Positions 31,186 through 46,743 of a DNA stretch of 56,026 bases are shown one piece after another. The notes below the pieces were generated by a model, which had not been told where the DNA came from, ran no database searches, and saw only the letters and a list, made by a program, of their open reading frames with translations. The translations under genes and the position numbers were made by a program. The stretch comes from Nocardia wallacei (GTDB lineage: Bacteria; Actinomycetota; Actinomycetes; Mycobacteriales; Mycobacteriaceae), in contig NZ_JARWQD010000062.1 of assembly GCF_029869545.1 (NCBI RefSeq), positions 1 to 56,026 on the forward strand. Reading direction: 5' to 3'. Every line of letters starts with the position of its first letter. The stretch's first letter is position 1.

Positions 31186-31281
31186 AGCCTTCACCCCTTT
31201 GCGTCCACCGTACCGATGTCAGAAAGATGAAGCAGGCCGAACAACGAAAGCGGCCGAACGGGAATCGTAGCGGTGCGGTTG

Positions 31282-32049
31282 CTACTTCGACGGATCGGGC
31301 AGAGACTGGACGTCCTTCCATAAACGCTCGGCGCGCGCGAAGAAGAAATCCAGCCATTCCTTCCCGTTCTCCTCCCCCAGCGCGATGGAGGGGCGGTCAC
31401 CCGGATCGGTCTTGTACGGGTAGAAGTAGACCAGGGCGGATCGCTCGTGACCGTGCTTGACGAATATGCCCGCCATCGTGGGCACGCTGTGGTATGCCCG
31501 CGTCTCGATGCGCTGATTCTCCTTGTCCGACAGCAGCGCCCGTACCGAGCGCATCGTGGATTCGAACACCCGGAAATCGGCGACCAGACGTTCGGTGGTG
31601 TGCGAGGTGGACGACGCGGTATACCGGGCCAGATCGTCGTCGCGCAGATCGAGAACCGCGATGCGAACCCGGCAGCCGCTCCGGACCAGATTGGCCAGCC
31701 GCTCAGGCCCCTCGGTCAGCGAGCCCGCCTTCGTCAGGCCCACAATGAGCACCTCGGAGGCGTTTCGAGCGAAGTCGTCGAACGACCCGACCTCCGCCCA
31801 CCGGCGCAGCACCGGCGGATTCTCGAGCCTCCCCCGGACCTGATGTACCTCGCGCCGGATCTCCTGCAGCACCAGTAATCGGTCCGAAACGTAGGTGAGC
31901 ACCAGCACCGCGAGCAGGCCGAGCACGGCGCTGAGTTGATCCTTCACGCTCAGCTCGCCCATGACGGAGAGCACCGTCATCGCGACGCCGGCGACAACCG
32001 TGGCCAGGGCTAGGATCAGGACGACAACCGACGATATTCTGCGCGACAC
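31282..32049 (-). CDS. two-TM protein with degenerate PLD-like domain
   Basis: 255-aa protein. Two hydrophobic segments at about 8-30 and 40-60 anchor it, followed by a cytosolic domain. The domain has the alternating beta/alpha pattern of the phospholipase-D superfamily (VLIVGLTKAG, CRVRIAVLDL, IFVKHGHERSALVYFY, WLDFFFARAERLWKD), but the HKD catalytic motifs are not visible. It may therefore be a ligand sensor (DUF5919-like) rather than an enzyme. GTG 32049 lies 12 bp after the ARMT1 stop, indicating cotranscription. Confidence 0.6.
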   Translation of the reverse strand: MSRRISSVVVLILALATVVAGVAMTVLSVMGELSVKDQLSAVLGLLAVLVLTYVSDRLLVLQEIRREVHQVRGRLENPPVLRRWAEVGSFDDFARNASEVLIVGLTKAGSLTEGPERLANLVRSGCRVRIAVLDLRDDDLARYTASSTSHTTERLVADFRVFESTMRSVRALLSDKENQRIETRAYHSVPTMAGIFVKHGHERSALVYFYPYKTDPGDRPSIALGEENGKEWLDFFFARAERLWKDVQSLPDPSK

Positions 32050-32061
32050 TCTCTACCTTGT

Positions 32062-33234
32062 TCACTCGACGACGAAATGCGCCACCGCGTAGCGGCCCGA
32101 GAACCGCCAGTCCCGTTCGGTGGCATCCAGCTCCGACACCGATTCCCGCGGCAGACCGGCACAGATATCCGATTTCATGGTCCGCAGGATCAGCAGGTCG
32201 GTTTTCAGGTCCGGGAGCAACTGTTCCAGTGGATACGTGGCCGGGGTGACCCGATCGGCGAGCAGGCGACGGTAATTCAGGTCGCCCTTGACGATCGTCA
32301 CATCGTTGCTGCCGATTCCCTCCGCCAGATCCGGGGGCATCTGGCAATAATGCAGCGGCGACTGGAAGAACCAGTGCGTCACAATGCGCAGCCGCCCTTC
32401 CTCGACACACCGACGCAGCATCGACAGCTCGTGATCGGCATTGATCAGCGCCGACACCGTGGTCTCGAAATCGTTGGCCGTGGCGTCGGAGATGAAGAAC
32501 GGCCGCTGCTTCAGATATACCGTCACCGTGGTGTTTTCCCGGCTCCGCAGCAGATGCGCGGCGAGAATCACGTCGGCCAGCAGCTCCGCACCGGCATTGT
32601 CCGCGACAATACCCACCGAGTCGGATTGTTCCAGCCGCACCCGCGCCGGGTCCAAATCGTCCACCAGCAGCACGCCGGACCCCGGCGCGGACCCGTCGCC
32701 GCGGAATTGGGCGTGCGCCGCATCCGACAGATTCCCCCACAGCGAGGCCATCAGGCTCTCGCGCAACGAGAGAGTGCTCGCCCGGCCCCTGGTCACGACG
32801 CCGACGGCCGCGAGCAGGGCGTTCGTCTTGCGCGCCAGGAACGGGTCGCGCTCGTAATTGCTGGACAGATAGTCGAAATAGCCGAAGGCGTCGAGAAGGA
32901 GGTGATAGAACAGCGCCTCACCGATGTAACTGGGTGAATCGAACCAGGAGCCGCCGATCAACTCCATCGCGCCGCGCCAGGCATACAGGGGAACCATGGT
33001 GTGGGTGGACGACGGCTTCGGTATGGGATCGTCGTGAAGAAAGCTGTCACGCAGCCCCGCCAGGCTCTCACCTGCCCGGTCGTCCCGATTCACCAGCGCG
33101 CGGACCTGGTCGACCACCCGCGGAAAGACCCGCTTCATCATGCCGTTGGCGAATACGTTCTCCGGGGCGGTCGACAGTGTCTCGAATTCGGCCGCGGCGC
33201 CGGCGGGAGGTCGGGATCCCCTGCAACCGGTCAT
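32062..33234 (-). CDS. ARMT1/DUF89-like metal-dependent phosphatase
   Basis: 390-aa member of the DUF89 (ARMT1-like) damage-control phosphatase family. Signature residues are visible in order: VADNAGAELLAD, the KxxPxxxxDA block LKQRPFFISDATAND, and KGDLNYRRLL. Family members are Mn/Co-dependent and remove phosphate from sugar phosphates or damaged metabolites. ATG 33234 is chosen for its strong GGAGGGGG Shine-Dalgarno seven bases upstream; in-frame sequence further upstream is poor. It is first in the four-gene minus-strand set, and none of the neighbours outside this set shares the function. Confidence 0.78.
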   Translation of the reverse strand: MTGCRGSRPPAGAAAEFETLSTAPENVFANGMMKRVFPRVVDQVRALVNRDDRAGESLAGLRDSFLHDDPIPKPSSTHTMVPLYAWRGAMELIGGSWFDSPSYIGEALFYHLLLDAFGYFDYLSSNYERDPFLARKTNALLAAVGVVTRGRASTLSLRESLMASLWGNLSDAAHAQFRGDGSAPGSGVLLVDDLDPARVRLEQSDSVGIVADNAGAELLADVILAAHLLRSRENTTVTVYLKQRPFFISDATANDFETTVSALINADHELSMLRRCVEEGRLRIVTHWFFQSPLHYCQMPPDLAEGIGSNDVTIVKGDLNYRRLLADRVTPATYPLEQLLPDLKTDLLILRTMKSDICAGLPRESVSELDATERDWRFSGRYAVAHFVVE

Positions 33235-33397
33235 GTGCCGCCCCCTCCACTGGTATGTCGCCCGTCCGATGTGCACCTCGCCAGCGACCTCATGGTACAG
33301 CTGGGAAGCCCGGGCGGATACGGTCAAATGTCCACTTGAGATACCGCAAAAGCGCAGGCCGGCTGGATCATTGAACGCGGAAGCTCCGAGCCCCCGG

Positions 33398-34471
33398 TCA
33401 GGAGTAGTTGTGGGCGAGGGTGCGGCGGTGGGTGGCCGGTGTGCCGTAGAGCGAGCGGTTCAGGGTGGCTCGTTTGAGGTAGGCGTGGATGCCGGATTCC
33501 CAGGTGTAGCCGATGCCGCCGTGTAGTTGCATGGCCTTGCCGACGACCTGGACGGCGGCGGTGGTGGCGTAGGACTTGGCCATCGCGGCGGTCGTGGCCG
33601 CGGTGGGGGTGCCGTGGGCGCGGACCGCCGCGGTGACCAGCTGGCGGGCGACCCGCGCCTGGACCAGCATGTCGGCGCAGGCGTGCTGGACGGCCTGGAA
33701 GGAACCGATGGCGCGGCCGAATTGCTCTCGCGCGCGGGCGTATTCGACGGTGGCGGCGAGCATGGCCTCGATCAGGCCGAGGCTGTCGCAGGCGGTCGCG
33801 ACGGCGGCCCGGTCGTGCAGGTGACGCAGGGCCGCGGTGCCGCCGCCCGGCAACCGCCACAGCGAATCCGGCCGGATCGGGACATGCTGGGCGGCAACGT
33901 GACCGATGATCCGGGTGGCGTCGAGCAGCGGCTGGTTCGTGACGGTCACGCCCGGGGTTGCCGGGTCGACGGCAACGATCAGGATCTCGCCGTCCGGTGT
34001 ACGAGCGGGGATCAGCAGTCGGTCGGCGGCGGGCGCGTCCGGGACGAAATCCGCGCTCCCGTCGAGATGTATCGCGGCCGGGTCGCCGCTGAGCCGGAAG
34101 CGCGGATTCTCCGGAGAGTCCTCCCACTCCCCCGGCATTACAACGATCGGCAGGACCTTTCCGGATACAGTGTCGCGGAACAGACTGTCTCGCAACGGGT
34201 TCGGTTCGACCAAGGTGAAGGCGGCGATGCCGAGTACCGCCACCGAGGGATAGGCCGTGTAGGCCGCGGCGCGGCCGATCTCTTCCAGCAGCACGGCCAG
34301 CTCCGCGAAAGTCGCTCCCGCGCCGTCCATTTCGCCAGACGCCTCCAGGCCCAGCCACCCGGCCCGGGTGATCCGGGACCAATCGACCGGTGTTTCGTGA
34401 TCGGTGGCGGCGAGCAGGGCGCGTGCCGCCGTGCGCAGATCGTCGTGGAGGTCGTCGAATTCGCCGGTCAT
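33398..34471 (-). CDS. acyl-CoA dehydrogenase subunit (beta-type)
   Basis: 357-aa acyl-CoA dehydrogenase family protein. The C-terminal MQLHGGIGYTWESGIHAYLKR and LYGTPATHRR resemble the subunit at 16431. The middle domain is short and the N-terminal part begins MTGEFDDLHDDLRTAARALL. It overlaps the upstream, longer acyl-CoA dehydrogenase (ATGA), which argues for an alpha2-beta2 enzyme. It closes the operon starting at 38722. Confidence 0.87.
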   Translation of the reverse strand: MTGEFDDLHDDLRTAARALLAATDHETPVDWSRITRAGWLGLEASGEMDGAGATFAELAVLLEEIGRAAAYTAYPSVAVLGIAAFTLVEPNPLRDSLFRDTVSGKVLPIVVMPGEWEDSPENPRFRLSGDPAAIHLDGSADFVPDAPAADRLLIPARTPDGEILIVAVDPATPGVTVTNQPLLDATRIIGHVAAQHVPIRPDSLWRLPGGGTAALRHLHDRAAVATACDSLGLIEAMLAATVEYARAREQFGRAIGSFQAVQHACADMLVQARVARQLVTAAVRAHGTPTAATTAAMAKSYATTAAVQVVGKAMQLHGGIGYTWESGIHAYLKRATLNRSLYGTPATHRRTLAHNYS

Positions 34472-35667
34472 CGCGGTGCCGCCGGTTCCCTGGGCAGGCC
34501 GAGGCCGCGCTCGGCGATGAGGCTGCGCTGGATCTCGCTGGTGCCGCCCGGGATGGTCCATTCCCAGGAGGCGAGGAAATCCAGCGGCCAAGCGCCGGAC
34601 TCCCAGCCACTGGACATCGGTTTCCGCAGCATGGTCTGGGCGTCCAGGCCGCCGATCTCGGCGCCGAAATCCGTTAGGCGCTGCAGTAATTCGCTGTAGT
34701 ACAGCTTGACGACCGAGGCGTCGGCCGGACCCGCGGTCCCCTCGGCATGGCGTTCCACCAGGTCGCGGCACAGCCCCCGCAATCCGGTGAGTTCGATCTC
34801 CAGCTGAGCCAGGCGATCGGCGATCGCGGGGTCGTCGATCGGGCGCAGGCCGCCCGGTCCGGACCGGCGGGCCGTCTCGAGCAGCCACCGGAATCCCGCA
34901 TTGCCCAGCCGTTCGGCCAATTCCAGCATGGTCAGCCCGCGTTCGGCACCGAGTGTCCGCTGGGCCACTCGCCAGCCGGTGTTCTCCGCACCGACCAGGT
35001 GCGACGCCGGGATGCGAACCTCGTCCAGGAAGATCTCGCAGAAGTGCGAGTCGCCGGTCGCCTGGCGGATCGGCCGCACGTCGATGCCGGGGCTGCGCAT
35101 GTCGAGCAGGAAGTACGAGATCCCTTGCCGCTTGGGCGCATTCGGGTCGGTGCGGGCCAGGAGCAGGCACCAGTCCGCGTACTGTGCGCCGCTGGCCCAG
35201 ACCTTCTGCCCGGTGACCAGGTAGTCGCCACCGTCGCGGCGGGCGGTGGTGCGCAGGGCGGCCAGGTCCGAACCGGCTTCGGGCTCGGAAAAGCCCTGCG
35301 CCCAGATCTCGCCGTCCAGGATGGCGGGCAGGTGACGGCGCCGCTGTTGCTGCGTGCCCGCCGCCAGCAGGGTCGCCGCCGCGTGATGGATCGCGACGAA
35401 GGCCAGGACCAGCCGCGGCGCGTCGTGCGCGGCCAACTCCTGGTACAGCACGACCTGTTCCGGAACGGTCATGCCGCCGCCGTATTCGCGCGGCCAGTGC
35501 GGTACCGCGTAGCCCGCGCCGCGCAACTCCTGGAACCACTCCTGTTGGAAGCGAACGAATTCCGCATCGGACGCGCCCGTCTGCGCCCGCCGCCACCCGG
35601 CCGGGATATGCGCGCGGCACCAGTGCCGGATCTCGGCGCGGAACTCGGTGAGGTCCGCCGCGGTCAC
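34468..35667 (-). CDS. acyl-CoA dehydrogenase subunit (alpha-type)
   Basis: 399-aa acyl-CoA dehydrogenase with complete middle domain (FSEPEAGSDLAALRTTARRD, VTGQKVWASGAQYADWC) and C-terminal IPGGTSEIQRSLIAERGLGLPRE. GTG 35667 overlaps the enoyl-CoA hydratase stop (GTGA), and its own stop overlaps the next start. It is the probable FAD-binding partner of the gene at 33398. Confidence 0.9.
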   Translation of the reverse strand: MTAADLTEFRAEIRHWCRAHIPAGWRRAQTGASDAEFVRFQQEWFQELRGAGYAVPHWPREYGGGMTVPEQVVLYQELAAHDAPRLVLAFVAIHHAAATLLAAGTQQQRRRHLPAILDGEIWAQGFSEPEAGSDLAALRTTARRDGGDYLVTGQKVWASGAQYADWCLLLARTDPNAPKRQGISYFLLDMRSPGIDVRPIRQATGDSHFCEIFLDEVRIPASHLVGAENTGWRVAQRTLGAERGLTMLELAERLGNAGFRWLLETARRSGPGGLRPIDDPAIADRLAQLEIELTGLRGLCRDLVERHAEGTAGPADASVVKLYYSELLQRLTDFGAEIGGLDAQTMLRKPMSSGWESGAWPLDFLASWEWTIPGGTSEIQRSLIAERGLGLPREPAAPR

Positions 35668-36449
35668 GGTGCCCGCATCCGCGTCCGCAGCGCGAGCAAC
35701 CGTTCCCGGTGCTCGGGCGTCTGCATGGAGACCACCTCGGCGGCGAATCCGGCCTGCATCGGCCCGGCGAGCGCCTGGGACAGGTACATGTTCACCACCC
35801 GCTTGGTGCTGCGCAACGCCTCGGGGGGCTGGGCGCTGAGCCGGTCGGCGAGTGCGCTTGCCTCGCTGAGCAAGTCGTCCGGTGCGACGGTCCGGCTCGC
35901 CAGGCCCACCTGCACGGCGGTGGCGGCATCGATCCGGTCGCCGGTGTACAGGTACTCCCGCGTGCGCAGGATCGGGGTCAGCAGCGGCCAGAACGCCGCG
36001 CCCCCGTCGCCTGCGACCAGCCCGACGGCCACGTGCGGGTCGGCGAGGTACGCCCGCTCCGACATCAGCACGACATCGCACAGCACGGCGATGCTGGCGC
36101 CCAGCCCGACCGCCGCCCCGTTCACCGCCGCGATCACGGGCAGCGGGAAACGCAGCATCTCCTCGATGATCTGCGCGCCTTCGCGAATGCTCTCGTCTCG
36201 TGCCACGGGATCGTCGAGGAAGCTGGTGATCCACTCCAGATCCCCGCCCGCGCTGAATGCCCGGCCCGCCCCGGTCAGGATCACCACCCGCGCCTGGCGA
36301 TCCGCGGCCAGCTGCCGCCAGACCTCGGCCAGCGCCCGATGCAGGTCGGCGTTCACGGCATTCGATTCACCGGGGCGATCGATCACCACGGTCCGCACCG
36401 GCCCGTCCGACCGCACGATCAGCCCCGGCGGCAGGTCGTAGACCGCCAT
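35664..36449 (-). CDS. enoyl-CoA hydratase/isomerase family protein
   Basis: 261-aa crotonase. AFSAGGDLEWITSFLDD and NGAAVGLGASIAVLCDVVLMS are the two oxyanion-hole blocks. A long acidic insertion after the first block (DDPVARDESIREGAQ) is typical of the actinobacterial form. ATG 36449 lies in the TGATG overlap with a ghost acyl-CoA dehydrogenase terminus (see the tandem repeat at 36444). It is flanked by two acyl-CoA dehydrogenase pairs. Confidence 0.88.
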   Translation of the reverse strand: MAVYDLPPGLIVRSDGPVRTVVIDRPGESNAVNADLHRALAEVWRQLAADRQARVVILTGAGRAFSAGGDLEWITSFLDDPVARDESIREGAQIIEEMLRFPLPVIAAVNGAAVGLGASIAVLCDVVLMSERAYLADPHVAVGLVAGDGGAAFWPLLTPILRTREYLYTGDRIDAATAVQVGLASRTVAPDDLLSEASALADRLSAQPPEALRSTKRVVNMYLSQALAGPMQAGFAAEVVSMQTPEHRERLLALRTRMRAP

Positions 36450-36597
36450 CACTCCATCTCCCGATCGAACAGCCCGGACAGGCCATGTCGGCCCGACAGC
36501 CGGAGCAGCGGGTCGTGGGTCGCCATCACTCCACCCCCGGATCGAACAGCCCGGACACGCCACGCCGCCCCGACAGCCGGGTCAGCAGGTCGTCAGT
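36444..36597. repeat. 77-bp imperfect tandem duplication of a gene terminus
   Basis: Two adjacent 77-bp copies, 36444-36520 and 36521-36597, roughly 80-85% identical by eye. Copy 2 encodes the real C-terminus of the acyl-CoA dehydrogenase at 36526 (RLSGRRGVSGLFDPGVE). Copy 1 encodes a ghost version (RLSGRHGLSGLFDREME) followed by stop and the hydratase ATG as TGATG. The same TGATGGCG arrangement exists in copy 2, so the duplication copied a translation-coupling junction. Confidence 0.75.
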
Positions 36598-37518
36598 GGC
36601 CACCGCGCCCAGCGGCAGGCGGCGTAGCGGCAGGCTGTAGCGGGACAGCCAGGACAGCGGGGACTCGTCGCAGAAGCCGAGGGCGCCGTGTAGTTGGTGG
36701 GCCGTGCGGAAGACCGTTTCGGCCGCGTCCAGGATCGCCGAGCGCAGCGCCACGGCGTCGAGGAGCGCGTCGGGACTGTCCGACTGAATACTCCACAGTG
36801 CGTAGCGCGCAAGCATATCCGCGCCGCGCCGCTCGACCTCGGCGTCGGTCAGCTGGAACTGGACCGACTGGAACTCCGCCAGCGGCCTGCCGAACTGCTC
36901 GCGCACGAGCACGTGGTCGCGGGTCAGGTCCACCGCGCGATCCAGCATGCCCAGCAGCGTCCAGCACGGAAGGACCAGCGCGAGTGCGAGATCCGCCGTA
37001 CCGTCCGCGTCGACCGGGCGCACATCCACCCGTGCGACGAAGGCCGATTCCCGGGCGGGGGCGTCCGGCGCCCGCACGACGACCTCACTGCGGACACCGT
37101 CGAAAGTCACTGCCGCCCAGCGGAGGTCGAGATCCGAGACGGCCGCGGCGGGTTCGTCACCGGCTATCGCGACCAGCCCGTCGACATTCAGGTCCACCGG
37201 CCGGGCCAGCCGCTCGGCGACCGGATACGGTGTGGCCCAATATCCCGCGCTGCGGCACAGCGCGGCCGCCGCCTCCAGTTCGTCGTGATCGCGGCGCGGT
37301 TCCAGGTCCCACGCCCCGAGCGCACTCAGTACCGGCGCCACCAGCGACTCGCGTCGCCCGGGTGCCCGTTCGGCGGCCACGACCAGATCGTCACCGCCCG
37401 CGGCCTGTAGGGCCCGCTTCACCTGCGTGCCGAATTCCCTTGCCGCGCCGGAGAGTTCGATCCGCAGGGAATGCTCGTGCGGCCGGAACTGCGCGGCGGT
37501 CACCGATCCACCGCCCAT
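36526..37518 (-). CDS. acyl-CoA dehydrogenase subunit (beta-type)
   Basis: 330-aa acyl-CoA dehydrogenase family protein, short like the other beta-type subunits. Recognisable parts: VREQFGRPLAEFQSVQFQL and TAHQLHGALGFCDESPLSWL. ATG 37518 or GTG 37503 could be the start; the latter gives VTAAQFRPHEHSL. Its C-terminal 26 codons are duplicated downstream. It pairs with the acyl-CoA dehydrogenase at 37553. Confidence 0.83.
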   Translation of the reverse strand: MGGGSVTAAQFRPHEHSLRIELSGAAREFGTQVKRALQAAGGDDLVVAAERAPGRRESLVAPVLSALGAWDLEPRRDHDELEAAAALCRSAGYWATPYPVAERLARPVDLNVDGLVAIAGDEPAAAVSDLDLRWAAVTFDGVRSEVVVRAPDAPARESAFVARVDVRPVDADGTADLALALVLPCWTLLGMLDRAVDLTRDHVLVREQFGRPLAEFQSVQFQLTDAEVERRGADMLARYALWSIQSDSPDALLDAVALRSAILDAAETVFRTAHQLHGALGFCDESPLSWLSRYSLPLRRLPLGAVATDDLLTRLSGRRGVSGLFDPGVE

Positions 37519-37552
37519 CGTCCGGGAAGTCGGCCACCGATCCGCGAACCCA

Positions 37553-38722
37553 CTACGCCGCCTCCCCCGTGCGCGGCGGGCCACTCAACAACGAGCGGGC
37601 CAGCAGAATCCGCTGTATCTCGATACTTCCGGAGGCGACGGTCGCGGCATTGGCGTAGCGCCAGTGATCGTCCACCGCCCGGCGGAATCGCCGCACGGCC
37701 TCCTCGTCTCCCGCCGCGAAGGCGGCCAGCTCGGTCAACACGGCGGCGCTCTCCTGATCGAGCCGGGTCACGGCGATGCGGTAGGCCGCGGCGTCGCCCG
37801 GCGTGACCTGTCCCGCGCTCTGCAACGACACCACCTGGTAGGCGAGCAACCGGGCGCGCCGGGCCCGGGTGAGCGCCCGGGACCAGCGGCCGCGCAGCTC
37901 GGCGGGCAGGCGATCCCATCGCGGCCCCAGCATCTGCGGCGCCATCCGCAGCAGTCGCTCGCAGCGCGCATAGCGGGCGATGCCGACCCGTTCGAACGCC
38001 AGCACCTCGCCCACCACCGACCAGCCCCCGTCCACGGAGCCGAGCACGTCGGCCGCGGTCGCCCGCACACCGTCGAAGAAGACCTCGTTGAGGTGATGCG
38101 GCCCGAGCATGGAACGGATCGGCCGGACCTGGATCCCCGGATCGGACATCGGCACCAGAAATACGGTGAGCCCCTGCTGTTTTCGCCCCCGCGTGCAGGT
38201 GCGGGCCAGCAGGAAGCACCACTGCGCCATGGTGGCATAGGAGGTCCAGACCTTCTGGCCCGAGATCCGCCAGCCGTCGCCGTCGCGGCGGGCGGCGGTG
38301 CGCAGCGACGCCAGATCCGAACCGGCGTCCGGTTCGCTGAAGCCCTGGCACCAGATCACCTCGCCCCGCGCGATCGGCGGCAGATGCTTGCGCTGCTGTT
38401 CCGGCGTCCCGTGCCGCATGATCGCCGGGCCGACCCAGTTGACGCCCATGTACTGCGCGCCGCGCGGCTCGTGCTGCGCCCACATCTCCTCCCGGACGGC
38501 GGTCTGCTCCCACACCGAGGCGCCGCGGCCACCGAACTCCTCCGGCCATGCCGCGCACAGCAGCCCGCGGTCGGCGAGCACTCGGCAGAACCGTTGGGCG
38601 ACAGCAAGATCCGAAGGATCATCGGTGAATGCGCCGAGATATCCGGCCGGGACCTCCTCGGCAACCAGCCGTCGCAGCTCGGCCCGGAGCTCGGCGACGG
38701 ACTCACCCATCGTGAAGTCCAT
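37553..38722 (-). CDS. acyl-CoA dehydrogenase subunit (alpha-type)
   Basis: 389-aa acyl-CoA dehydrogenase: WPEEFGGRGAS, FSEPDAGSDLASLRTAARRD, ISGQKVWTSYATMAQWC and C-terminal ASGSIEIQRILLARSLL. ATG 38722 (MDFTMGESV) is preferred over an upstream TTG at 38740 that overlaps the operator. It is the first gene of the operon and diverges from the GntR regulator gene, with the 28-bp operator 11 bp upstream. Confidence 0.9.
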   Translation of the reverse strand: MDFTMGESVAELRAELRRLVAEEVPAGYLGAFTDDPSDLAVAQRFCRVLADRGLLCAAWPEEFGGRGASVWEQTAVREEMWAQHEPRGAQYMGVNWVGPAIMRHGTPEQQRKHLPPIARGEVIWCQGFSEPDAGSDLASLRTAARRDGDGWRISGQKVWTSYATMAQWCFLLARTCTRGRKQQGLTVFLVPMSDPGIQVRPIRSMLGPHHLNEVFFDGVRATAADVLGSVDGGWSVVGEVLAFERVGIARYARCERLLRMAPQMLGPRWDRLPAELRGRWSRALTRARRARLLAYQVVSLQSAGQVTPGDAAAYRIAVTRLDQESAAVLTELAAFAAGDEEAVRRFRRAVDDHWRYANAATVASGSIEIQRILLARSLLSGPPRTGEAA

Positions 38723-38732
38723 TGCCGCACAG

Positions 38733-38760
38733 TACTTCAATCCTCATAAGGATAGCAATA
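38733..38760. promoter_or_regulatory. candidate GntR operator, site 1 (28 bp)
   Basis: A 28-bp sequence with core ATCCT-CATA-AGGAT (38740-38753), located between the acyl-CoA dehydrogenase operon and the GntR gene. Its exact reverse complement is at 39952-39979 on the other side of the regulator. TTGTAT (38762-38767) and TACACT (38786-38791), 18 bp apart, could be the regulator's promoter, so binding would repress both directions and give autoregulation. Confidence 0.7.
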
Positions 38761-38834
38761 TTTGTATGGTCAACCGCCGGTTGGCTACACTGCCGCCATG
38801 ACCGGAAGGCAGCGCGCGTGAGGAACGTCCCCGG

Positions 38835-39650
38835 GTGGATGCGGTGACGGCGCCCAAGCGCGGCCGCGTCCCGCAACAGCGGATCGCCGAAACCGTTGCC
38901 GCCGAACTGCGTTCGCGCATCCTGGCCGGTGACGAGAACTACCGGCTGCCCACCCAGGACCAGCTGGTGCAGGATTTCGGCGTCAGCTATCCCTCGATCC
39001 GCGAGGCGCTGCGCATCCTGGAGACCGAGGGCCTGGTGACCGTCCGGCGCGGAAACGTCGGCGGCGCGGAGGTACATCGCCCCGACGAGACCTCCGCCGC
39101 CTACCATCTCGGACTCGCACTGCAGGGCGCCCGCGTCACCCTCGGCGACCTGGCGGCGGGGCTGCGCATGCTGGAACCGCTCTGCGCGGCCGAATGCGCC
39201 ACCCGGCCCGACCGCGCCGAGACGGTCGTTCCCGCGCTGACCGACAACGTCGACAAGTCGGCCGAACTCGTCGGCGACGGTGCGGCTTTCACGCACACCG
39301 CGCGCGAATTCCACGATCTCATCGTCTCGTTCACCCCGAACCTCACCGTCCGCTATGTGGTCAACTCGCTGGTCGCGCTCTGGTCGGCGCAGGAGCAGGC
39401 GTGGGCGGAGTCGCTGGCCCGGCGCGGCGAGTACCCGTCGCCCGAGGAGGCGACCGAGGCCGTGCGGACCCATCGGCGACTGGTCGAGGAGATCGCGGCC
39501 GGGCGCGCCGAACGGACCGAGCGGTTGTATCGCGACCATCTCGCCGCCACCCAGGCCCGGGTTCTCGAACGATTCGAGGGCGGCGTGGTCACCGCCGCCT
39601 CGCCCCGCACCCGTTCCACGGTGCAAGGCGGGGCGCACACGCGCATCTAG
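38835..39650 (+). CDS. GntR family regulator with FCD ligand-binding domain
   Basis: 271-aa FadR-subfamily GntR repressor. The winged helix-turn-helix is at about 15-75 (LRSRILAGDENYRLPTQDQL, VSYPSIREALRILETEGLV, VRRGNVGGAEV), followed by the all-helical FCD domain (about 95-225) with HxxxH-like residues in THTAREFHDLI. Start GTG 38835 (GTG 38844 is an alternative). FCD domains bind small organic acids, often acyl-CoA or pathway intermediates. The gene is bracketed by perfectly inverted operator copies that face an acyl-CoA dehydrogenase operon and the oxygenase operon. Confidence 0.92.
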   Translation: MDAVTAPKRGRVPQQRIAETVAAELRSRILAGDENYRLPTQDQLVQDFGVSYPSIREALRILETEGLVTVRRGNVGGAEVHRPDETSAAYHLGLALQGARVTLGDLAAGLRMLEPLCAAECATRPDRAETVVPALTDNVDKSAELVGDGAAFTHTAREFHDLIVSFTPNLTVRYVVNSLVALWSAQEQAWAESLARRGEYPSPEEATEAVRTHRRLVEEIAAGRAERTERLYRDHLAATQARVLERFEGGVVTAASPRTRSTVQGGAHTRI

Positions 39651-39705
39651 CGCGGGGCGGGCGCCGCGCGGTGGATGCGCCGCTCCGTCTGCGCACACGG
39701 AGTAT

Positions 39706-39720
39706 GATAATTCCATTCTC
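39706..39720. promoter_or_regulatory. candidate operator, GATAAT-TCC-ATTCTC
   Basis: 15-bp inverted repeat with one mismatch to the GAGAAT-N3-ATTCTC pattern, 56 bp after the GntR stop. Its presence beside a GntR operator suggests that two regulators converge on the oxygenase operon. Confidence 0.4.
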
Positions 39721-39951
39721 GCGATGCGACGGCCTGACTTCACCACAGGAGGGACGGCGCTGCGGTCCCGCGTCACGCGGCACCTCGCACCCTTGGGCCA
39801 CCGAAACGCGACCCCGGCCCCCGGAGACCGGCGGGCACGCAGCAGGCGCTCGGAGCACCGAAATACATTGCGGCCATTGGGCTTCCCAACAGACCCGCTA
39901 TGTCGATCCACTTCCCGAAGCCCTGCGCTTACGGGATGAGGACAGCGCAAG

Positions 39952-39979
39952 TATTGCTATCCTTATGAGGATTGAAGTA
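39952..39979. promoter_or_regulatory. candidate GntR operator, site 2 (28 bp)
   Basis: Exact reverse complement of the 28 bp at 38733-38760, with core ATCCT-TATG-AGGAT (39959-39972). It lies 110 bp upstream of the SMP-30-like gene at the head of the oxygenase operon. The pair forms an inverted repeat around the whole regulator gene, so besides two local sites it could support looping. Confidence 0.7.
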
Positions 39980-40088
39980 GCGTGATCCGCGTTACAGCAG
40001 TCGCCCGGATCGGGCGGTACCGACCACCGCGCAACCTCGGCGACGACACGTAGCGAAAACGACGTTCTCAAACATTCGGGAGGCCGCC

Positions 40089-41693
40089 TTGACCACAGGG
40101 GCGCGCTACCGCAGCACCGCACCGATCACCCTCGCCGCGGGATGGAGCCTGGAACGGCTCACGCCCCCGAGCCGGCTGTTCGGTGCGAACGGCCTGCGCA
40201 CCGGTCCGGACGGCCGCGTCTATGTGGCGCAGGTGGCCGGGAGTCAGATCAGCGCGCTCGATCTCGCCACCGGAGACCTGGAGACGATCAGCGCCCGGGG
40301 CGGCGATATCGTCGCCCCCGACGACCTGGCCTTCGATGCCGAGGGCAACCTCATCGTCACCGAGTACATGGACGCGCGGGTCAGCGTGCGCGGCACCGAC
40401 GGCCGCGCCCGGGTGCTGCGCGCCGATCTGCCCGGCGCCAACGGCATCACCGTGCACCGGGGCCGGCTGTTCGTCGACGAATGCCGCCTCGGCGGGCGTC
40501 TCATGGAGCTGCCGCTCGACGGCGGCGCCCCGCGCGTGCTGCAGGACAACCTGCCGATGCCCAATGCCATGGCGGCCGGTCCCGACGGCCTCCTCTACTA
40601 CCCGGTCATGGGCACCAACGACATCTGGCGTATCGATCCCGACGGCGGCACGCCCGAACGGGTCGTCGGCGATCTGGGCGCACCCGACTCGGTCAAGTTC
40701 GACTCCGCGGGCCATATCGTCTCCACGCAGGCGGGTACCGGCGAGGTGCTGCGCATCGATCCACGCACCGGGGACCGCCGGGTGCTGGCACGACTGGAGC
40801 CCGGCCTGGACAACTGCACCTTCGTCGACGAGCGCCTGTTCGTGTCGCATTTCTCCGGTGCGATCACCGAGATCCTCGGCGGCGGGGAGACGCGCAACGT
40901 GCTGGACGGGGGCCTGCTGTGGCCGCTGGATCTCACCGTCGGCCCCGACGGCGGCCTGTACGTGGCCGACGGGACGTTCTTCTACACCTTGCGCGACGGT
41001 GAATTGCACACGGTCGCCTCGCTTTTCAGCCCCGGAAACCCCGGCTATGTCCGCGGCGTCGCCGCCGTCGGCGCGAGCGAGTTCGTGTGCGCGACCTCCA
41101 CCGGCCAGGTCTCGTACTACCGCCCCGGCACGACCGAGGAACCCGAGGTCGTGGCCGACGGTTTCGATCAGCTCTACGGCATCGCGGCGGGCCGGGACGG
41201 GACGATCGTCACCGCGGAACTGGGCGCGGGCCGTGTGCTGGCGCTCCGCGCCGGGCAGGTGGAGGTGCTGGCGGCGGGGCTGGACGCGCCGCGAGGGGTC
41301 GCGTTCGGGCCCGACGGTACCGTCCTGGTATCCGAATCGGGCGCGGGGCGCGTGGTTTCCGTCGGCCCCGCGGGTGTCCACGTGGTGGCGGACGGCCTGA
41401 CGAATCCGCACGGAATTCTGGTGCGCGACAACCGATTGCATATCATCGATGCCGACATCAAGGCCCTGGTCCGGATCGACCTCGACACGAAGGCACGCAC
41501 CATCCTCGCGGCCGGACTCCCGGTGGGCGCGCAGCCCGGCGTGACCCCCAAGCCGCTGCTCGGAACACCCCCGTTCTCCGGCCCCATGGGCCCGTTCACC
41601 GGCATAGCCGCCGGTCCGGACGGCACACTCTACATTTCCGGCGACGCCGAGGGCAGTGTCTTGGCGCTGCGAGAGCAGGGCGGGCAGCGATGA
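40089..41693 (+). CDS. SMP-30/gluconolactonase-like beta-propeller protein
   Basis: 534-aa beta-propeller protein made of repeated blades of the form GPDGRLYVAD (for example GLRTGPDGRVYVAQ, FDAEGNLIVTEY, VGPDGGLYVADG, FGPDGTVLVSES, AGPDGTLYISGD). It is nearly twice the length of a standard SMP-30/gluconolactonase, so it may be two fused or extended propellers. No signal peptide is seen. It starts at TTG 40089 with GGGAGG seven bases upstream, and overlaps the SDR by four bases. In the context of a Baeyer-Villiger monooxygenase a lactonase role is plausible, but this is inferred. Confidence 0.75.
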   Translation: MTTGARYRSTAPITLAAGWSLERLTPPSRLFGANGLRTGPDGRVYVAQVAGSQISALDLATGDLETISARGGDIVAPDDLAFDAEGNLIVTEYMDARVSVRGTDGRARVLRADLPGANGITVHRGRLFVDECRLGGRLMELPLDGGAPRVLQDNLPMPNAMAAGPDGLLYYPVMGTNDIWRIDPDGGTPERVVGDLGAPDSVKFDSAGHIVSTQAGTGEVLRIDPRTGDRRVLARLEPGLDNCTFVDERLFVSHFSGAITEILGGGETRNVLDGGLLWPLDLTVGPDGGLYVADGTFFYTLRDGELHTVASLFSPGNPGYVRGVAAVGASEFVCATSTGQVSYYRPGTTEEPEVVADGFDQLYGIAAGRDGTIVTAELGAGRVLALRAGQVEVLAAGLDAPRGVAFGPDGTVLVSESGAGRVVSVGPAGVHVVADGLTNPHGILVRDNRLHIIDADIKALVRIDLDTKARTILAAGLPVGAQPGVTPKPLLGTPPFSGPMGPFTGIAAGPDGTLYISGDAEGSVLALREQGGQR

Positions 41694-42562
41694 CCACGGG
41701 GGAACACTTGGCGCACAACGGCTTCGGCGAACTGGGCCTCGCGGGGCGCGTCGTCATCGTCGCGGGGGCGGGTGGTGGCGGCATCGGTACGGCCGTGTGC
41801 CGCCTGGTCGCTCGCGCGGGCGCCACCGTGATCGCGGTCAGCCGATCCCCGGAGAATTTGGGCGAACATATCGAACCGCTTGCCGCCGCGGGGCTTTCGG
41901 TTGTTCCGGTGGCGGCCGACGTCGGCACCGACGCGGGCATCGACACCGCGCTCGAGCATGCCCGCGGCGCACCGGGCTCCCTGCACGGCCTGGTCAATGT
42001 CGCCGGCGGCGCCGCTCCCGCGACCTGGATGCCCGCCACCCGCGTGACCCGCGACGACTGGCGCGCGCTGTTCGAGCAGAACCTCGAGACCATGTTCTTC
42101 ACCAGTCAGGCGGTGGCCGCGGAACTGCGGTCGCAGGGCCGTCCGGGGTCGATCGTGTCGATCTCGTCGATCAGCGGAATGAACACGGCCCCTTTCCATA
42201 TCGCCTACGGCACGGCCAAGGCCGCCGTGGTGGCGGCGACCCGGACGATGGCCGCGGAACTGGCGCTCGACGGCATCCGCGTCAACGCCGTCGCCCCCGG
42301 GGTGACGGCGACGCCCGCCTCGGGCACCTATGTCGACGAGGACTCCGACCGCGACCGCCGCGCCATCGCCATGGGCCGGCGCGGGCGTCCCGAGGAACAG
42401 GCCGGGCCCATCCTGTTCCTGCTGTCCGACCTGGCGAGCTATATCACCGGCCAGACGCTGCTCGTCGACGGCGGATTGAACCTCAAGTGGACCCATCTCG
42501 GCGCCGACAACACCTCACTGTTTCTGAAGGACGAGTCGTTCCGCGCCGCGATCACCCGCTGA
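41690..42562 (+). CDS. short-chain dehydrogenase/reductase
   Basis: 290-aa SDR with a glycine-rich cofactor loop VAGAGGGGIGTAV (variant of TGxxxGIG), NVAGGAAP, SISSISGMN, catalytic YGTAK and C-terminal GQTLLVDGGL. A 25-residue extension follows the normal C-terminus (KWTHLGADNTSLFLKDESF). Its ATG overlaps the SMP-30 stop (ATGA). It probably oxidises a hydroxyl produced by the oxygenase to a ketone for the Baeyer-Villiger enzyme. Confidence 0.88.
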   Translation: MTTGEHLAHNGFGELGLAGRVVIVAGAGGGGIGTAVCRLVARAGATVIAVSRSPENLGEHIEPLAAAGLSVVPVAADVGTDAGIDTALEHARGAPGSLHGLVNVAGGAAPATWMPATRVTRDDWRALFEQNLETMFFTSQAVAAELRSQGRPGSIVSISSISGMNTAPFHIAYGTAKAAVVAATRTMAAELALDGIRVNAVAPGVTATPASGTYVDEDSDRDRRAIAMGRRGRPEEQAGPILFLLSDLASYITGQTLLVDGGLNLKWTHLGADNTSLFLKDESFRAAITR

Positions 42563-42589: not shown

Positions 42590-43939
42590 ATGACCGAGAC
42601 ACCGGAACCGCTGTCGACACCGCTGACCATCGGTGTCGAGGCGTACATTTCGCCGGAGTACGCCCGCGCCGAAGGGGACCGGCTCTGGGCCAAGGTGTGG
42701 CAGCAGGTCGAGCGGGTGGAGGAGATCCCCCGGGTCGGCGACTTCCTCACCTACGAGATCCAGGACGACTCGATCATCGTGGTGCGCACCGCTCCCGACA
42801 CGATCCGCGCCTACCACAACGTCTGCGCGCACCGGGGCCGCCGCCTGATCGACACCCCGCCCGGCGCGCACGACGCCCGCGGCAGCCGCAAGCAGTTCGT
42901 GTGCGGATTCCACGGCTGGCGCTACGACCTGCGAGGCCGCAACACATTCGTGGCCGAACGCGAGGACTGGCCGTGCGGTCTCAGCGAGCGCAACGACGGC
43001 CTGAACCCGGTGCGGGTCGACACCTGGGGCGGCTGGATCTGGATCACCATGGACCCCGACGCCGTGCCCCTGCGCGAATATCTGGAACCCGCCGCGAGCC
43101 TGCTCGAGCACTTCGAGCTGGAGAAGATGCGCTACCGGTGGCGGCGGTGGCTGACCTTCGACTGCAACTGGAAGGTCGCCTTCGAGGCATTCATGGAGAC
43201 CTACCACGTGCCCTACACGCATCCGGAGTTCATGAACTTCGGGCAGTTCCTGGGCTGGGCGCGGGCGCAGGGCAGGCACAGCAATATCGGCTACGACGCG
43301 CCGAAGGGGATGGAGGAGAACCAGGCCAAGGTGCGCCTGGGCCACGGTCCCGACGCCCGGGTCTCGACGGCGGCGCTGCAGAATTTCACCTGGGAGAACG
43401 CCAATACCAACACCACCCGGACGCTGGTCGACGTGGCCAACCGCCTGGTCGACGAGCTGCCCGAGGGCACCCCGGCGGGCGAGGTCCTGCGGTACTGGCT
43501 CGACACCGCGCGCTCGGAGGACGAGGCGCGCGGCGTGGTCTGGCCCAAGGTCGATCCCGACATCGTCGCGCGGGCCGGTACCGCGTGGCAGATCTTCCCG
43601 AACTTCCAGATCGGCCACGCGCTGAACAACATGCTGTGCTACCGGTTCCGGCCCTACGGCCACGACCCCGACAGATGCATCTTCGAGGCCGCCGTCTTCG
43701 AGCTGTTCCCGCCCGGCGAGGAGCCGGAGACCGAGTGGGAGTACACGCCCGAGGGCGATCCGAACTGGAGAACCGTGCTGCCACAGGACTTCTCCAACAT
43801 GGCCGCGGTACAGAAGGGCCTGAAGTCGCGGGGCTTCTCCGGCGCGAAACCGAATCCGTATCGCGAGCGCAGCATCGTCAATCTGCATCACAACCTCGCC
43901 TCCTACATGGGCACCGGCGAGCCCCGCCCGATGCCCTAG
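42590..43939 (+). CDS. Rieske non-heme iron oxygenase alpha subunit
   Basis: 449-aa ring-hydroxylating or demethylating oxygenase. The Rieske [2Fe-2S] ligands are C79 and H81 (CAHRGRR) and C105 and H108 (CGFHGWRY). The catalytic domain has the mononuclear-iron histidines H206 and H211 in ETYHVPYTH. Reductase and ferredoxin partners are not adjacent, and there is no beta subunit, as in KshA-like single-alpha oxygenases. RBS AGGAGG precedes ATG 42590. It would oxygenate a cyclic or aromatic substrate at the start of the pathway. Confidence 0.92.
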   Translation: MTETPEPLSTPLTIGVEAYISPEYARAEGDRLWAKVWQQVERVEEIPRVGDFLTYEIQDDSIIVVRTAPDTIRAYHNVCAHRGRRLIDTPPGAHDARGSRKQFVCGFHGWRYDLRGRNTFVAEREDWPCGLSERNDGLNPVRVDTWGGWIWITMDPDAVPLREYLEPAASLLEHFELEKMRYRWRRWLTFDCNWKVAFEAFMETYHVPYTHPEFMNFGQFLGWARAQGRHSNIGYDAPKGMEENQAKVRLGHGPDARVSTAALQNFTWENANTNTTRTLVDVANRLVDELPEGTPAGEVLRYWLDTARSEDEARGVVWPKVDPDIVARAGTAWQIFPNFQIGHALNNMLCYRFRPYGHDPDRCIFEAAVFELFPPGEEPETEWEYTPEGDPNWRTVLPQDFSNMAAVQKGLKSRGFSGAKPNPYRERSIVNLHHNLASYMGTGEPRPMP

Positions 43940-43990: not shown

Positions 43991-45817
43991 ATGCAACAGT
44001 GCGAGCCGACGGAAACGCCCGAGGTCGACCGGGAGGCCCTCCGCGCGAAATATCTGGCCGAGCGCGACAAGCGGCTGCGTCCCGAGGGACAGCGCCAGTA
44101 CCTCGAGGCCGAGAACGAATTCGCCGAGTTCTACGAACACGATCCACATATGCCGGTCGTACCGCGCGAACCGATCTCCGCCGATATCGACGTGGTGGTG
44201 CTCGGCGGCGGTTTCGCCGGGCTCATCACCGCGCATCGGTTGCAGCGGGCGGGCGTCACGGATTTCCGGATCGTCGAGCTGGGCGGCGATTTCGGCGGTG
44301 TGTGGTACTGGAACCGCTATCCCGGCATCCAGGTGGACTCGGATTCCTACACCTACCTGCCGCTGATCGAAGAGACCGGCTACATGCCGACGGAGAAGTT
44401 CACCCACGGCGACGAGAACTACGAGCATGCTCAGCGCATCGGCAAACACTTCGGCCTCTACGAGAAGGCGATCTTCCACACCCTGACCCGTTCGCTGGAA
44501 TGGGACGAGGAACTCGAACGCTGGCGAATCGGCACCAATCGAGGTGACGACATTCGGGCCCGCTTCGTGGTGATGTGCCAGGGCCCCTACAACCGCCCGA
44601 AGCTGCCCGGCATCCCGGGTATCACCGACTTCACCGGACACACCTTCCACACCGCCCGCTGGGACTACGACTACACCGGCGGCGACCTGCACGGCGGACT
44701 GGACCGGCTCGCCGACAAGCGCGTCGCCATCATCGGCACGGGATCGACTGCGGTCCAAGCGATTCCGCACCTGGCGCGCGGCGCGAAGCACCTCACCGTG
44801 TTCCAGCGGACACCGTCGTACATCTTCGAGCGCGACAACTACCCCACCGATCCGGAATGGGTGAAGACGCTGCAACCGGGCTGGCGCGCGGAACGGCAGC
44901 GCAACTTCCACAACGCGGCCTTCGCGTTCTACAGCCCGGGTGAGCCGGATCTGATCTGCGACGGCTGGACCGAGGTCGCTCGCAACCTGGCCGCGCGGCT
45001 GAACGAGACCGGCGGCTGGGCGGCACTGGCGGATCCGGCGAAGTTCCTGGAACTCAAGGAGATCGAGGACTACCGGGCGATGGAGCGGCTGCGCCGCCGC
45101 GTCGAGGAGATCGTCGAGGATCCGGAGACGGCGGAGAAGCTCAAGCCGTACTACCGCAACATGTGCAAGCGACCGGTCTTCAACGACGACTACCTGCCGA
45201 CGTTCAATCGACCGAACGTCACCCTCGTCGACGTCTCGGATACCAAAGGCGTGGAACGCATCACCGCGAAGGGCGTCCTGGCCCACGGCGTCGAGCACGA
45301 GGTGGACTGTCTCATCTTCGCCAGCGGTTTCGAGATCACCACCTCGCTCGATCGCCAGTACGCCGTCGAGCCGTTCACCGGGCGCGGCGGGCGGTCGCTG
45401 TACGAGCACTGGGGCGCGGGATTCCGCACGATGCACGGCATCACGACCCACGGCTTCCCGAACATCTACTTCACCGGGTTCATTCAGGGCGGTGTCACCG
45501 CGGCCACCACCCTCATGTTCGAGCAGCAGGCCGACCACATCGCCTACATCATCGCGCAGGCGCGGCGGCGCGGCGCCACGGTCGTGGAACCCAGCGCGGA
45601 GGCCGAGGAGCGGTGGGTCCGCACGATCCGCGAGAACACGGTCGACAACAGCACCTTCGTGAGCGAATGCACGCCCGGCTACTACAACAGCGAGGGCGAG
45701 CCGAACGGCCGCTCGTTCCTCGGCGATCCGTTCTGGGGCGGGTTCTACGTGCTCGAGGACATGCTGCGGGCGTGGCGGGACGCGGGCGAGCTGGAGGGGT
45801 TGGTGCTGAGCGAATGA
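43991..45817 (+). CDS. Baeyer-Villiger monooxygenase (FAD/NADPH)
   Basis: 608-aa class B flavoprotein monooxygenase. FAD-binding GGGFAG (72-77), NADPH-binding GTGSTA (249-254) and the Baeyer-Villiger fingerprint FTGHTFHTARW (214-224) are all intact. The extended N-terminus (about 60 residues before the first Rossmann fold) is typical of the steroid/cyclopentadecanone-type enzymes rather than the short cyclohexanone type. It would convert a ketone to an ester or lactone. It shares an operon with an upstream SDR, an SMP-30 lactonase candidate and downstream SDR, TPP enzyme and ALDH. Confidence 0.93.
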   Translation: MQQCEPTETPEVDREALRAKYLAERDKRLRPEGQRQYLEAENEFAEFYEHDPHMPVVPREPISADIDVVVLGGGFAGLITAHRLQRAGVTDFRIVELGGDFGGVWYWNRYPGIQVDSDSYTYLPLIEETGYMPTEKFTHGDENYEHAQRIGKHFGLYEKAIFHTLTRSLEWDEELERWRIGTNRGDDIRARFVVMCQGPYNRPKLPGIPGITDFTGHTFHTARWDYDYTGGDLHGGLDRLADKRVAIIGTGSTAVQAIPHLARGAKHLTVFQRTPSYIFERDNYPTDPEWVKTLQPGWRAERQRNFHNAAFAFYSPGEPDLICDGWTEVARNLAARLNETGGWAALADPAKFLELKEIEDYRAMERLRRRVEEIVEDPETAEKLKPYYRNMCKRPVFNDDYLPTFNRPNVTLVDVSDTKGVERITAKGVLAHGVEHEVDCLIFASGFEITTSLDRQYAVEPFTGRGGRSLYEHWGAGFRTMHGITTHGFPNIYFTGFIQGGVTAATTLMFEQQADHIAYIIAQARRRGATVVEPSAEAEERWVRTIRENTVDNSTFVSECTPGYYNSEGEPNGRSFLGDPFWGGFYVLEDMLRAWRDAGELEGLVLSE

Positions 45818-46743
45818 CCGCCGGGCCGGAGCTGAGATTCGACGATCGCGTCGCCGTGATCACCGGCGCGGGGCGGGGTTTGGGGCGCGCGTACGCCCTG
45901 CTGCTCGCCTCGAGGGGCGCCCGGGTCGTGGTCAACGACACCGGCGCCGCCATCAGCGGCGACGGCGCGGACATCGACGTCGCGAACCAAGTGGCGCAGG
46001 AGATTTCGGCGGCGGGTGGCGAGGCCGTCGCGTGTACCGAATCCGTCGCGAGCCCCGAGGGCGGACGCGCGATCGTCGAATCGGCCCTGGATGCCTACGG
46101 CCGCATCGACATCCTCATCCACAATGCGGGGAACAACCGCTACGCCGCGCTGGCGGAGATGACCTACGAGGACTTCGAGGCGGTCCTCGATGTGCACCTG
46201 CGCGGCGCCTTTCACGTTGTGCGGGCAGCGTTTCCGCGGATGTGCGACGCCGGATACGGCCGCGTCGTGCTCACCTCGTCGATCGGCGGCCTCTACGGCA
46301 ACGAGCGGGTCGCCAACTACGCCGCGGCCAAGGCGGGCATCATCGGGCTGTCCACCGTGGTCGCCCTGGAGGGCGCCGCGCACGGCGTGAAATCCAATGT
46401 GATCGTCCCGGCCGCCCTGACCCGGCTGGCCGACGGGCTCGACACCTCGGCCTACCCGCCGATGGGACCGGAGCTGACGGCACCGGCGGTCGCCTGGCTG
46501 GCACACGAAACCTGTTCCGTCACAGCGGAACTGCTGGTCGCCATCGCGGGGCGGATCGCGCGCGCGTTCATCGCCGAGACACCGGGCATATACCGGCCGT
46601 CGTGGACGGTCGAAGACGTAGCCGAACACATCGACGCCATTCGCGACACCAAGGATTTCTGGCTGCTACCGGCGGTCCCCTCGGGCCACGCCGAGCACAT
46701 CGGCAGGAGTTTCGCGATGGCCACGGAAGGACATGACGCATGA
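45814..46743 (+). CDS. SDR, MFE2-type 3-hydroxyacyl-CoA dehydrogenase-like
   Basis: 309-aa SDR: TGAGRGLGRAYA with the family's acidic NDTGA, NAGNN, SSIGGLYGN and YAAAK. The long C-terminus (IYRPSWTVEDVAEHIDAI) is shared with the dehydrogenase part of peroxisomal multifunctional enzyme 2. Such enzymes oxidise 3-hydroxyacyl-CoA. ATG 45814 overlaps the BVMO stop (ATGA) and its own stop overlaps the TPP gene. Confidence 0.88.
   Translation: MTAGPELRFDDRVAVITGAGRGLGRAYALLLASRGARVVVNDTGAAISGDGADIDVANQVAQEISAAGGEAVACTESVASPEGGRAIVESALDAYGRIDILIHNAGNNRYAALAEMTYEDFEAVLDVHLRGAFHVVRAAFPRMCDAGYGRVVLTSSIGGLYGNERVANYAAAKAGIIGLSTVVALEGAAHGVKSNVIVPAALTRLADGLDTSAYPPMGPELTAPAVAWLAHETCSVTAELLVAIAGRIARAFIAETPGIYRPSWTVEDVAEHIDAIRDTKDFWLLPAVPSGHAEHIGRSFAMATEGHDA

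Follow-up and report, generated by a model that had tools for sequence, protein, structure and literature searches.

Operators of the FadR subfamily of GntR regulators follow the consensus TKGT/ACMA, with 2-3 nt between GT and AC, as set out in the relevant part of PMC4494728. Table 1 of that paper gives both Arg35 and Arg45 of FadR as contacting G; the paper further describes Asp as far less common than Arg at the first of these two places, where it is predicted to contact C. We describe here a locus of Nocardia wallacei in which a member of this subfamily is enclosed by two inverted copies of a site with a different core. The window, i.e. the whole stretch of DNA that was analysed (56,026 nt; contig NZ_JARWQD010000062.1), carries the regulator gene between a left operon of acyl-CoA dehydrogenase type on the minus strand and a right operon with SMP-30, Rieske and Baeyer-Villiger monooxygenase (BVMO) genes on the plus strand:

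34468-35673, minus strand: third acyl-CoA dehydrogenase (start approximate)
35664-36563, minus strand: enoyl-CoA hydratase (open reading frame as listed, start uncertain; Pfam)
36526-37584, minus strand: second acyl-CoA dehydrogenase subunit (open reading frame as listed; Pfam)
37553-38722, minus strand: acyl-CoA dehydrogenase ACAD1, first gene of the left operon (Pfam, NCBIfam)
38835-39650, plus strand: GntR/FCD regulator of the FadR subfamily (start maybe 38844; Pfam GntR and FCD above cutoff; fold)
40089-41693, plus strand: SMP-30/ScyE-like protein SGL, first gene of the right operon (Pfam, NCBIfam)
41693-42562, plus strand: short-chain dehydrogenase (start approximate)
42590-43939, plus strand: Rieske ring-hydroxylating oxygenase alpha subunit (Pfam)
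43991-45817, plus strand: BVMO (NCBIfam, PDB likeness)
45814-46743, plus strand: short-chain dehydrogenase (start approximate)
46740-48449, plus strand: thiamine-diphosphate (ThDP) enzyme
48446-49873, plus strand: aldehyde dehydrogenase (start approximate)

Together the two operons look like a CoA-linked catabolic route, acting on a cyclic ketone or a terpenoid-like acid. The pathway is read from protein families without a named substrate because, among the operon proteins scanned, only the SMP-30/ScyE-like protein passed an NCBIfam cutoff, and that at the subfamily level. The BVMO comes nearest to the PtlE model (667 bits against a cutoff of 1100) and has 5mq6 as its nearest PDB entry; the ThDP enzyme is nearest to the acetolactate synthase, oxalyl-CoA decarboxylase and 2-hydroxyacyl-CoA lyase types. 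Several open reading frames of the neighborhood have a less clear identity: those at 28547-30298, 31282-32049 and 33324-34610 (all minus strand, 3' of the left operon) have neither a Pfam nor an NCBIfam match and surround an ARMT1-like gene (32062-33327) and a HAD hydrolase gene (30436-31194). Another one, at 49877-51133 (minus strand), has no Pfam match and a weak NCBIfam match to P450-derived glycosyltransferase activators, and is possibly a degenerate or atypical P450.

The sites themselves are the following:

38733-38760, minus strand: left operator element; its minus-strand sequence, which points to the acyl-CoA dehydrogenase gene, is TATTGCTATCCTTATGAGGATTGAAGTA (repeat search and conservation in relatives)
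38738-38755, no strand assigned: 18-bp core dyad of the left site, CAATCCTCATAAGGATAG on the plus strand (core defined from relatives)
39952-39979, plus strand: right operator element, same sequence as the left one, reading towards the SMP-30/Rieske/BVMO operon (repeat search and conservation)
39957-39974, no strand assigned: 18-bp core dyad of the right site, CTATCCTTATGAGGATTG (core defined from relatives)

A first-pass annotation had noticed this exact inverted pair around the GntR/FCD gene, and comparison within the window bears it out: the two copies are perfect reverse complements (28/28) and form part of a longer inverted pair whose 37-nt arms, 1183 nt apart, are 92% complementary. It had also placed each copy before an operon start, which holds on both sides, with the amendment that the right operon begins with the SMP-30/ScyE-like gene (40089) and not with the Rieske gene. 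The string ATCCT-N4-AGGAT occurs twice in the window, against 0.01 occurrences expected from shuffles, and the whole-genome search for it that the annotation had proposed located three places, of which only the pair has the 28-bp flanks; the third (C280) is embedded in unrelated sequence. Unrelated genomic copies of the 28-mer, which the annotation had named as evidence against an operator, were looked for with up to three mismatches, and the 8.07-Mb, 399-contig assembly holds the pair alone. A relaxed 21-mer (up to two mismatches) matched the pair and one further 2-mismatch place in the same genome (L191), with no window-gene homolog within the surrounding 3 kb. As judged from the comparisons below, the pair very likely serves the enclosed GntR/FCD gene as its operator.

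When GTDB contigs were searched for an exact 19-bp match, 27 stretches were recovered: 24 from Nocardia, two from Aldersonia and one from Gordonia. Many Nocardia share this gene order, again with a site on either side of the regulator. Among the regulator-centred loci, 69 of which were examined, 24 have an opposed pair of sites whose copies lie 955-1432 bp apart; in nine of these pairs all 28 bp agree, and the other 15 have 1-7 differing positions. The exact 28/28 identity of the two copies is hence not special in itself: as the pairs vary in identity and the order recurs, selection for the same site, and not recent duplication, is the simplest reason for the copies being alike. When the two flanks of the regulator were compared in 13 loci for 20-mers in common (up to three mismatches), the site was recovered in two (L023, L029); the other 11 gave only unrelated GC-rich matches (e.g. 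L027) or nothing.

The most widely conserved unit in the comparison of relatives is an 18-bp dyad, CWATCCTT-N2-RAGGATWG, which in Nocardia is extended on one side by CAAnTATTG and runs on the other into a TANNNT hexamer. In another genus (g41), where the regulators are 72-76% identical, the element between ACAD1 and the regulator is a perfect palindrome, CAATCCTTATAAGGATTG, and in another family, with regulators 51-53% identical, it takes the form CTATCCTTGTAAGGATTG or AATCCTTACAAGGATTG. Across 397 genomes of the order, the exact pattern WATCCTTNNRAGGATWG was found in nine genomes at 11 distinct places, nine of which, in eight genomes, adjoin orthologs of the regulator, ACAD1 or SGL; the place in G504 (L217) and one of the two in G431 (L224) have no window-gene homolog nearby. 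A match to the core or to the longer Nocardia pattern was also seen away from known targets, at G092:C23:255631. Three loci (L133, L134, L208) encode paralogous regulators (62-64% identity) with a diverged site before their own gene, e.g. AAAGATTGCAATACTTGCGAAGATTG.

The extended Nocardia site shows a further regularity: in AAGTATTG-CTATCCTT-AT-GAGGATTG one 8-mer can be read three times, its orientation alternating from copy to copy. Three genomes (G114, G046, G209; loci L109, L110, L198) have an extra AAGGATAGCAATACTTG unit beside the full left site, and in one lineage, here called rearranged, mainly the first two half-sites are kept at the regulator promoter. It is possible that such an array of half-sites would be bound by two dimers.

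The regulator has both domains that mark the FadR subfamily: an N-terminal GntR winged helix (PF00392, 49.2 bits, cutoff 27) and a C-terminal all-helical FCD domain (PF07729, 50.8 bits, cutoff 24.3), with helices predicted at residues 85-244. Its predicted structure (mean pLDDT 78) matches FadR-subfamily entries, including complexes with DNA, and FCD entries lead the list of structure matches. Three histidines, H157, H210 and H232, noted with regard to the FCD metal ligands, are invariant in 20 homologs. In the alignment, QDQ and VSY stand where PdhR and NanR have ERE and VSR/VGR; by spacing, these places (HTH positions 28 and 38) correspond to Arg35 and Arg45 of FadR and are occupied here by Asp and Tyr, which are nearly invariant among the 20 homologs. 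The regulator is present (E <= 1e-60) in 30 of the 397 genomes of the order. The exact core accompanies it in eight of the 11 genomes in which the two key places have Asp and Tyr/His, versus none of the 19 in which they have Glu and Gly/Ala/Leu, the protein of the window being included in the count (Fisher 2.8e-5, uncorrected for phylogeny). The three genomes with Asp and Tyr/His that are devoid of the exact core (G003, G097, G109) all belong to the rearranged lineage.

For a wider survey of site and regulator, ATCCT-N4-AGGAT alone was tried as a genome-wide marker and rejected: it is too short, occurring in 130 of 148 Nocardia genomes with unrelated spacers at most of the listed places. The bare core being too common, a longer pattern, TATTGCWATCCTTNTGAGGATTG, was used with up to three mismatches, the regulator being called at E <= 1e-60 among the best candidates (at most 12 scored per genome). 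By these criteria the regulator is present in 57 of the 148 Nocardia genomes. The site pattern is found in 54, every one of them among the 57, and is absent from all 91 genomes that lack the regulator (Fisher 2.9e-37, uncorrected for phylogeny). The three genomes with the regulator in which the pattern fails are G215, which has two weaker sites; G109, which has a ATCNTTNNAANGAT match 2.5 kb downstream of the regulator start (L121); and G217, with no site in the 3.8 kb examined. Since the regulator and the operons are mostly inherited together, this co-occurrence alone is no proof that the regulator protein binds the site.

A control without selection for the motif was drawn from 138 loci (the window included), none of which the motif had served to retrieve. 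Homologs of 22 window genes (at least 55% identity, match starting at residues 1-5) were taken from these loci, and the distinct regions of 250 nt before them were scanned with ATC[ACT]T-N4-A[AGT]GAT. The core is present in 48 of 49 regions before ACAD1, in all 44 before SGL and in 43 of the 61 before the regulator, the ACAD1 and regulator counts not being independent because the two genes often share one divergent region; upstream of homologs of the 19 other window genes it is found in none of 177. Across many species the dyad precedes the first gene of each operon and none of the inner ones, all these counts being uncorrected for phylogeny. The single ACAD1 region without the core belongs to a locus (L139) whose regulator has VSGPS instead of VSYPS, and the 18 regulator regions without it come mainly from the rearranged lineage, from L200 (G217) and from the three paralog loci mentioned above. 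The proposal that the pair is the operator of the enclosed GntR protein has thus withstood comparative tests able to fail it, all of them made on sequence.

The position of the sites relative to the predicted promoters suggests how they might act. The hexamers concerned are:

38729-38734, minus strand: TACTGT, predicted -10 of the left operon, which would be leaderless; 6 nt separate it from the ATG at 38722
38753-38758, minus strand: TTGCTA of the left site, 18 bp upstream of the -10; judged by position only, it may be a -35 or belong to a third half-site
39954-39959, plus strand: TTGCTA of the right site, open to the same two readings by position only
39978-39983, plus strand: predicted -10 hexamer TAGCGT of the right operon; TANNNT stands here in every one of the 26 SGL sites of the same orientation

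TANNNT is the -10 class of Mycobacterium tuberculosis promoters, centred 7-12 bp before the transcription start at 73% of primary start sites, and the relevant parts of the same transcriptome study (PMC3898074) describe leaderless mRNAs as common and report no conserved -35. At the distinct ACAD1 sites the dyad centre lies 23-25 nt from the start codon in 45 of 46 cases, the other being a secondary weak site (L025). TANNNT starts at -13 or -12 in 48 of the 49 unselected ACAD1 upstream regions, and is present in 53 of 53 distinct ATG-ending ACAD1 regions once motif-fetched loci are added. As TANNNT stands 12-13 nt before the left start codon, the left mRNA is predicted to be leaderless. The TTGCWA hexamer is found 18 bp upstream of TANNNT; its reading as a -35 is weak because no conserved -35 was reported in the mapped mycobacterial transcriptome, and since the inverted SGL sites keep the TTG, it may rather be a part of the operator. 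A 23-codon open reading frame that begins at a GTG shortly after the right site was weighed as a leader peptide; since the GTG is replaced by GTA in several relatives, the idea was given up. Between the left site and the regulator gene, 38786-38821 comprises a TACACT hexamer, 6 nt and a 7-codon open reading frame (MTGRQRA). TANNNT followed 5-8 nt later by ATG or GTG was seen between site and regulator in 33 of 34 loci, and in 22 of the 34 it opens a similar short frame, often of the form M-x-x-R-R-x-A and sometimes overlapping the regulator start; this might possibly be a leaderless upstream open reading frame coupled to the regulator.

The dyad lies just upstream of the predicted -10, and it is from this position that repression is proposed. 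We accordingly hold it to be highly probable, though short of certain, that the inverted pair represents conserved promoter-overlapping elements that are bound by the enclosed GntR/FCD dimer. The dimer would occupy the dyad before ACAD1 and that before SGL, and would block both flanking operons, and probably the regulator gene too, until a pathway intermediate releases it. The inducer would be a carboxylate or acyl-CoA intermediate of the cyclic-ketone-type pathway.

Some GntR proteins activate. It is therefore worth weighing that the site is an operator at which the regulator activates, or that it is bound by some other protein: its correlation with the regulator is by itself inseparable from one with the cluster as inherited, and an activator that distorts the promoter might conceivably make use of the spacer-like position. 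We regard this as unlikely, given that a dimer bound just upstream of the predicted -10 would hinder the polymerase, that the site also faces the regulator's own gene and that the core is lost where the recognition residues change, both in the comparison of residue classes and in the VSGPS locus.

Less probable still is that the elements are promoter only, common to both operons and read, for example, by an alternative sigma factor, with the symmetry being incidental. That both copies have the same direction relative to transcription and overlap TANNNT (in 48/49 ACAD1 regions and 26/26 same-orientation SGL sites), and that the non-symmetric left extension is kept, would fit such a role. However, the SGL sites are divided in orientation: 26 of 40 distinct ones have the same orientation, all with TANNNT in place, whereas the other 14, which belong to some lineages, run against the direction of transcription, and five of these still show TA...T there by letters. 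Across site orientations it is, on these sequences, the dyad that is the constant part. Further, the element turns into the perfect palindrome of g41, and has no match in the 91 Nocardia genomes without the regulator.

The site is also kept where the regulator and the operons lie apart. In the rearranged lineage the regulators are about 70-73% identical and are encoded apart from the operons. The promoter alignment shows a partial site, CAAnTATTGCAATC or similar, kept upstream of the regulator; the SGL upstream region has TAAGTATTGCAATCTTT-N2-AAGGAT, the half-site pattern being present in eight of the nine loci having SGL. In six genomes of this lineage that were checked (L168, L169, L171, L175, L177, L184), ACAD1 is preceded by CATTGCAATCCTTATGAGGATTG or a close variant centred 24 nt from the ATG, these loci having been fetched by the motif and only the position before the ACAD1 orthologs (81-83% identity) being unselected. 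The ACAD1 operon of these genomes is on another contig than the regulator in three and 87-98 kb from it in the other three. This separation, together with the varying spacing of the copies (955-1432 bp), speaks against the two sites acting mainly through DNA looping by regulator dimers about 1.2 kb apart; two strong near-identical sites do flank the gene in 24/69 loci, but we give looping very little weight and reject it as a general explanation. We likewise reject, as scarcely credible, that the pair forms the terminal inverted repeats of a small mobile element carrying the regulator: a 1.25-kb one-gene unit with perfect 28-bp inverted ends resembles an insertion sequence, but the enclosed gene is a GntR/FCD regulator with neither a transposase gene nor the multiple genomic copies of an insertion sequence or MITE, the pair is single in the genome and holds the same syntenic place in many species with variable spacing, and single sites precede operons far from the regulator.

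The sites extend to further targets in some genomes. G046, G114 and G209 have a third site match about 9 kb from the pair, that of G046 (L110:19144-19175) preceding a gene for an AcuI acrylyl-CoA reductase (533 bits, NCBIfam cutoff 440). The site of Gordonia hankookensis (L042:5532-5563) precedes another AcuI gene (538 bits), with no homolog of the regulator, ACAD1 or SGL in the 8 kb examined. These associations suggest that the pathway of some hosts might include an acrylyl-CoA-forming step; in the window no such site precedes an acrylyl-CoA reductase gene. More tentatively, and with somewhat less than even confidence in the scheme as a whole, we propose the following. A branch of FadR type without both Arg-guanine contacts may read CWATCCTT-N2-RAGGATWG through an Asp/Tyr surface, and the third half-site of Nocardia, AAGTATTG, convergent with the left arm, would make two overlapping dyads. 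The promoter of leaderless genes might then be covered by two dimers as far as the -10, and one regulator would control a dispersed regulon, with the acrylyl-CoA reductase gene among its members in some hosts.

These observations provide a concrete, testable operator off the family consensus for a regulator clade present in several genera of Actinomycetota, and sketch the regulon that serves an uncharacterised pathway of Rieske/BVMO/acyl-CoA type in Nocardia and its relatives. The change in the operator is matched by a change in the recognition residues, and so offers a natural experiment on the evolution of GntR specificity. The compact regulator-operator pair could also serve as a biosensor part.

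Among the known systems, FadR, PdhR, LldR, GlcC and others have canonical operators with TKGT/ACMA boxes, whereas the conserved dyad CWATCCTT-N2-RAGGATWG has none, as the first-pass annotation had supposed in calling the core unlike the FadR-type consensus; Arg35 and Arg45 of FadR are replaced by Asp and Tyr, so that the site and the regulator have neither the boxes nor the two HTH arginines of this group. NanR of Escherichia coli differs in another way: it binds GGTATA direct repeats and has a 32-residue N-terminal extension, whereas there is a dyad here, no GGTATA in the 28-mer and only a short tail on the regulator, which scores 66 bits with the NCBIfam NanR model against a cutoff of 260 and so lacks the marks of the NanR type. 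DhdR, a 2-hydroxyglutarate-responsive GntR/FCD regulator, was compared by protein alone and is about 20% identical. In open-access literature, covered by titles and the beginnings of abstracts, nothing was recognised as this operator or cluster, and the core strings were unmatched. The nearest likeness in arrangement is to the double-site divergons of the FadR subfamily, which, as far as the relevant part of PMC4494728 describes them, share with this locus an own site near each operon start and a regulator gene within the arrangement; the difference is that the second site of this locus is on the far side of the regulator gene, and that one lineage has its sites dispersed. Taken together, the comparisons make a well-supported case that the predicted operator represents a new type within a known regulator subfamily.
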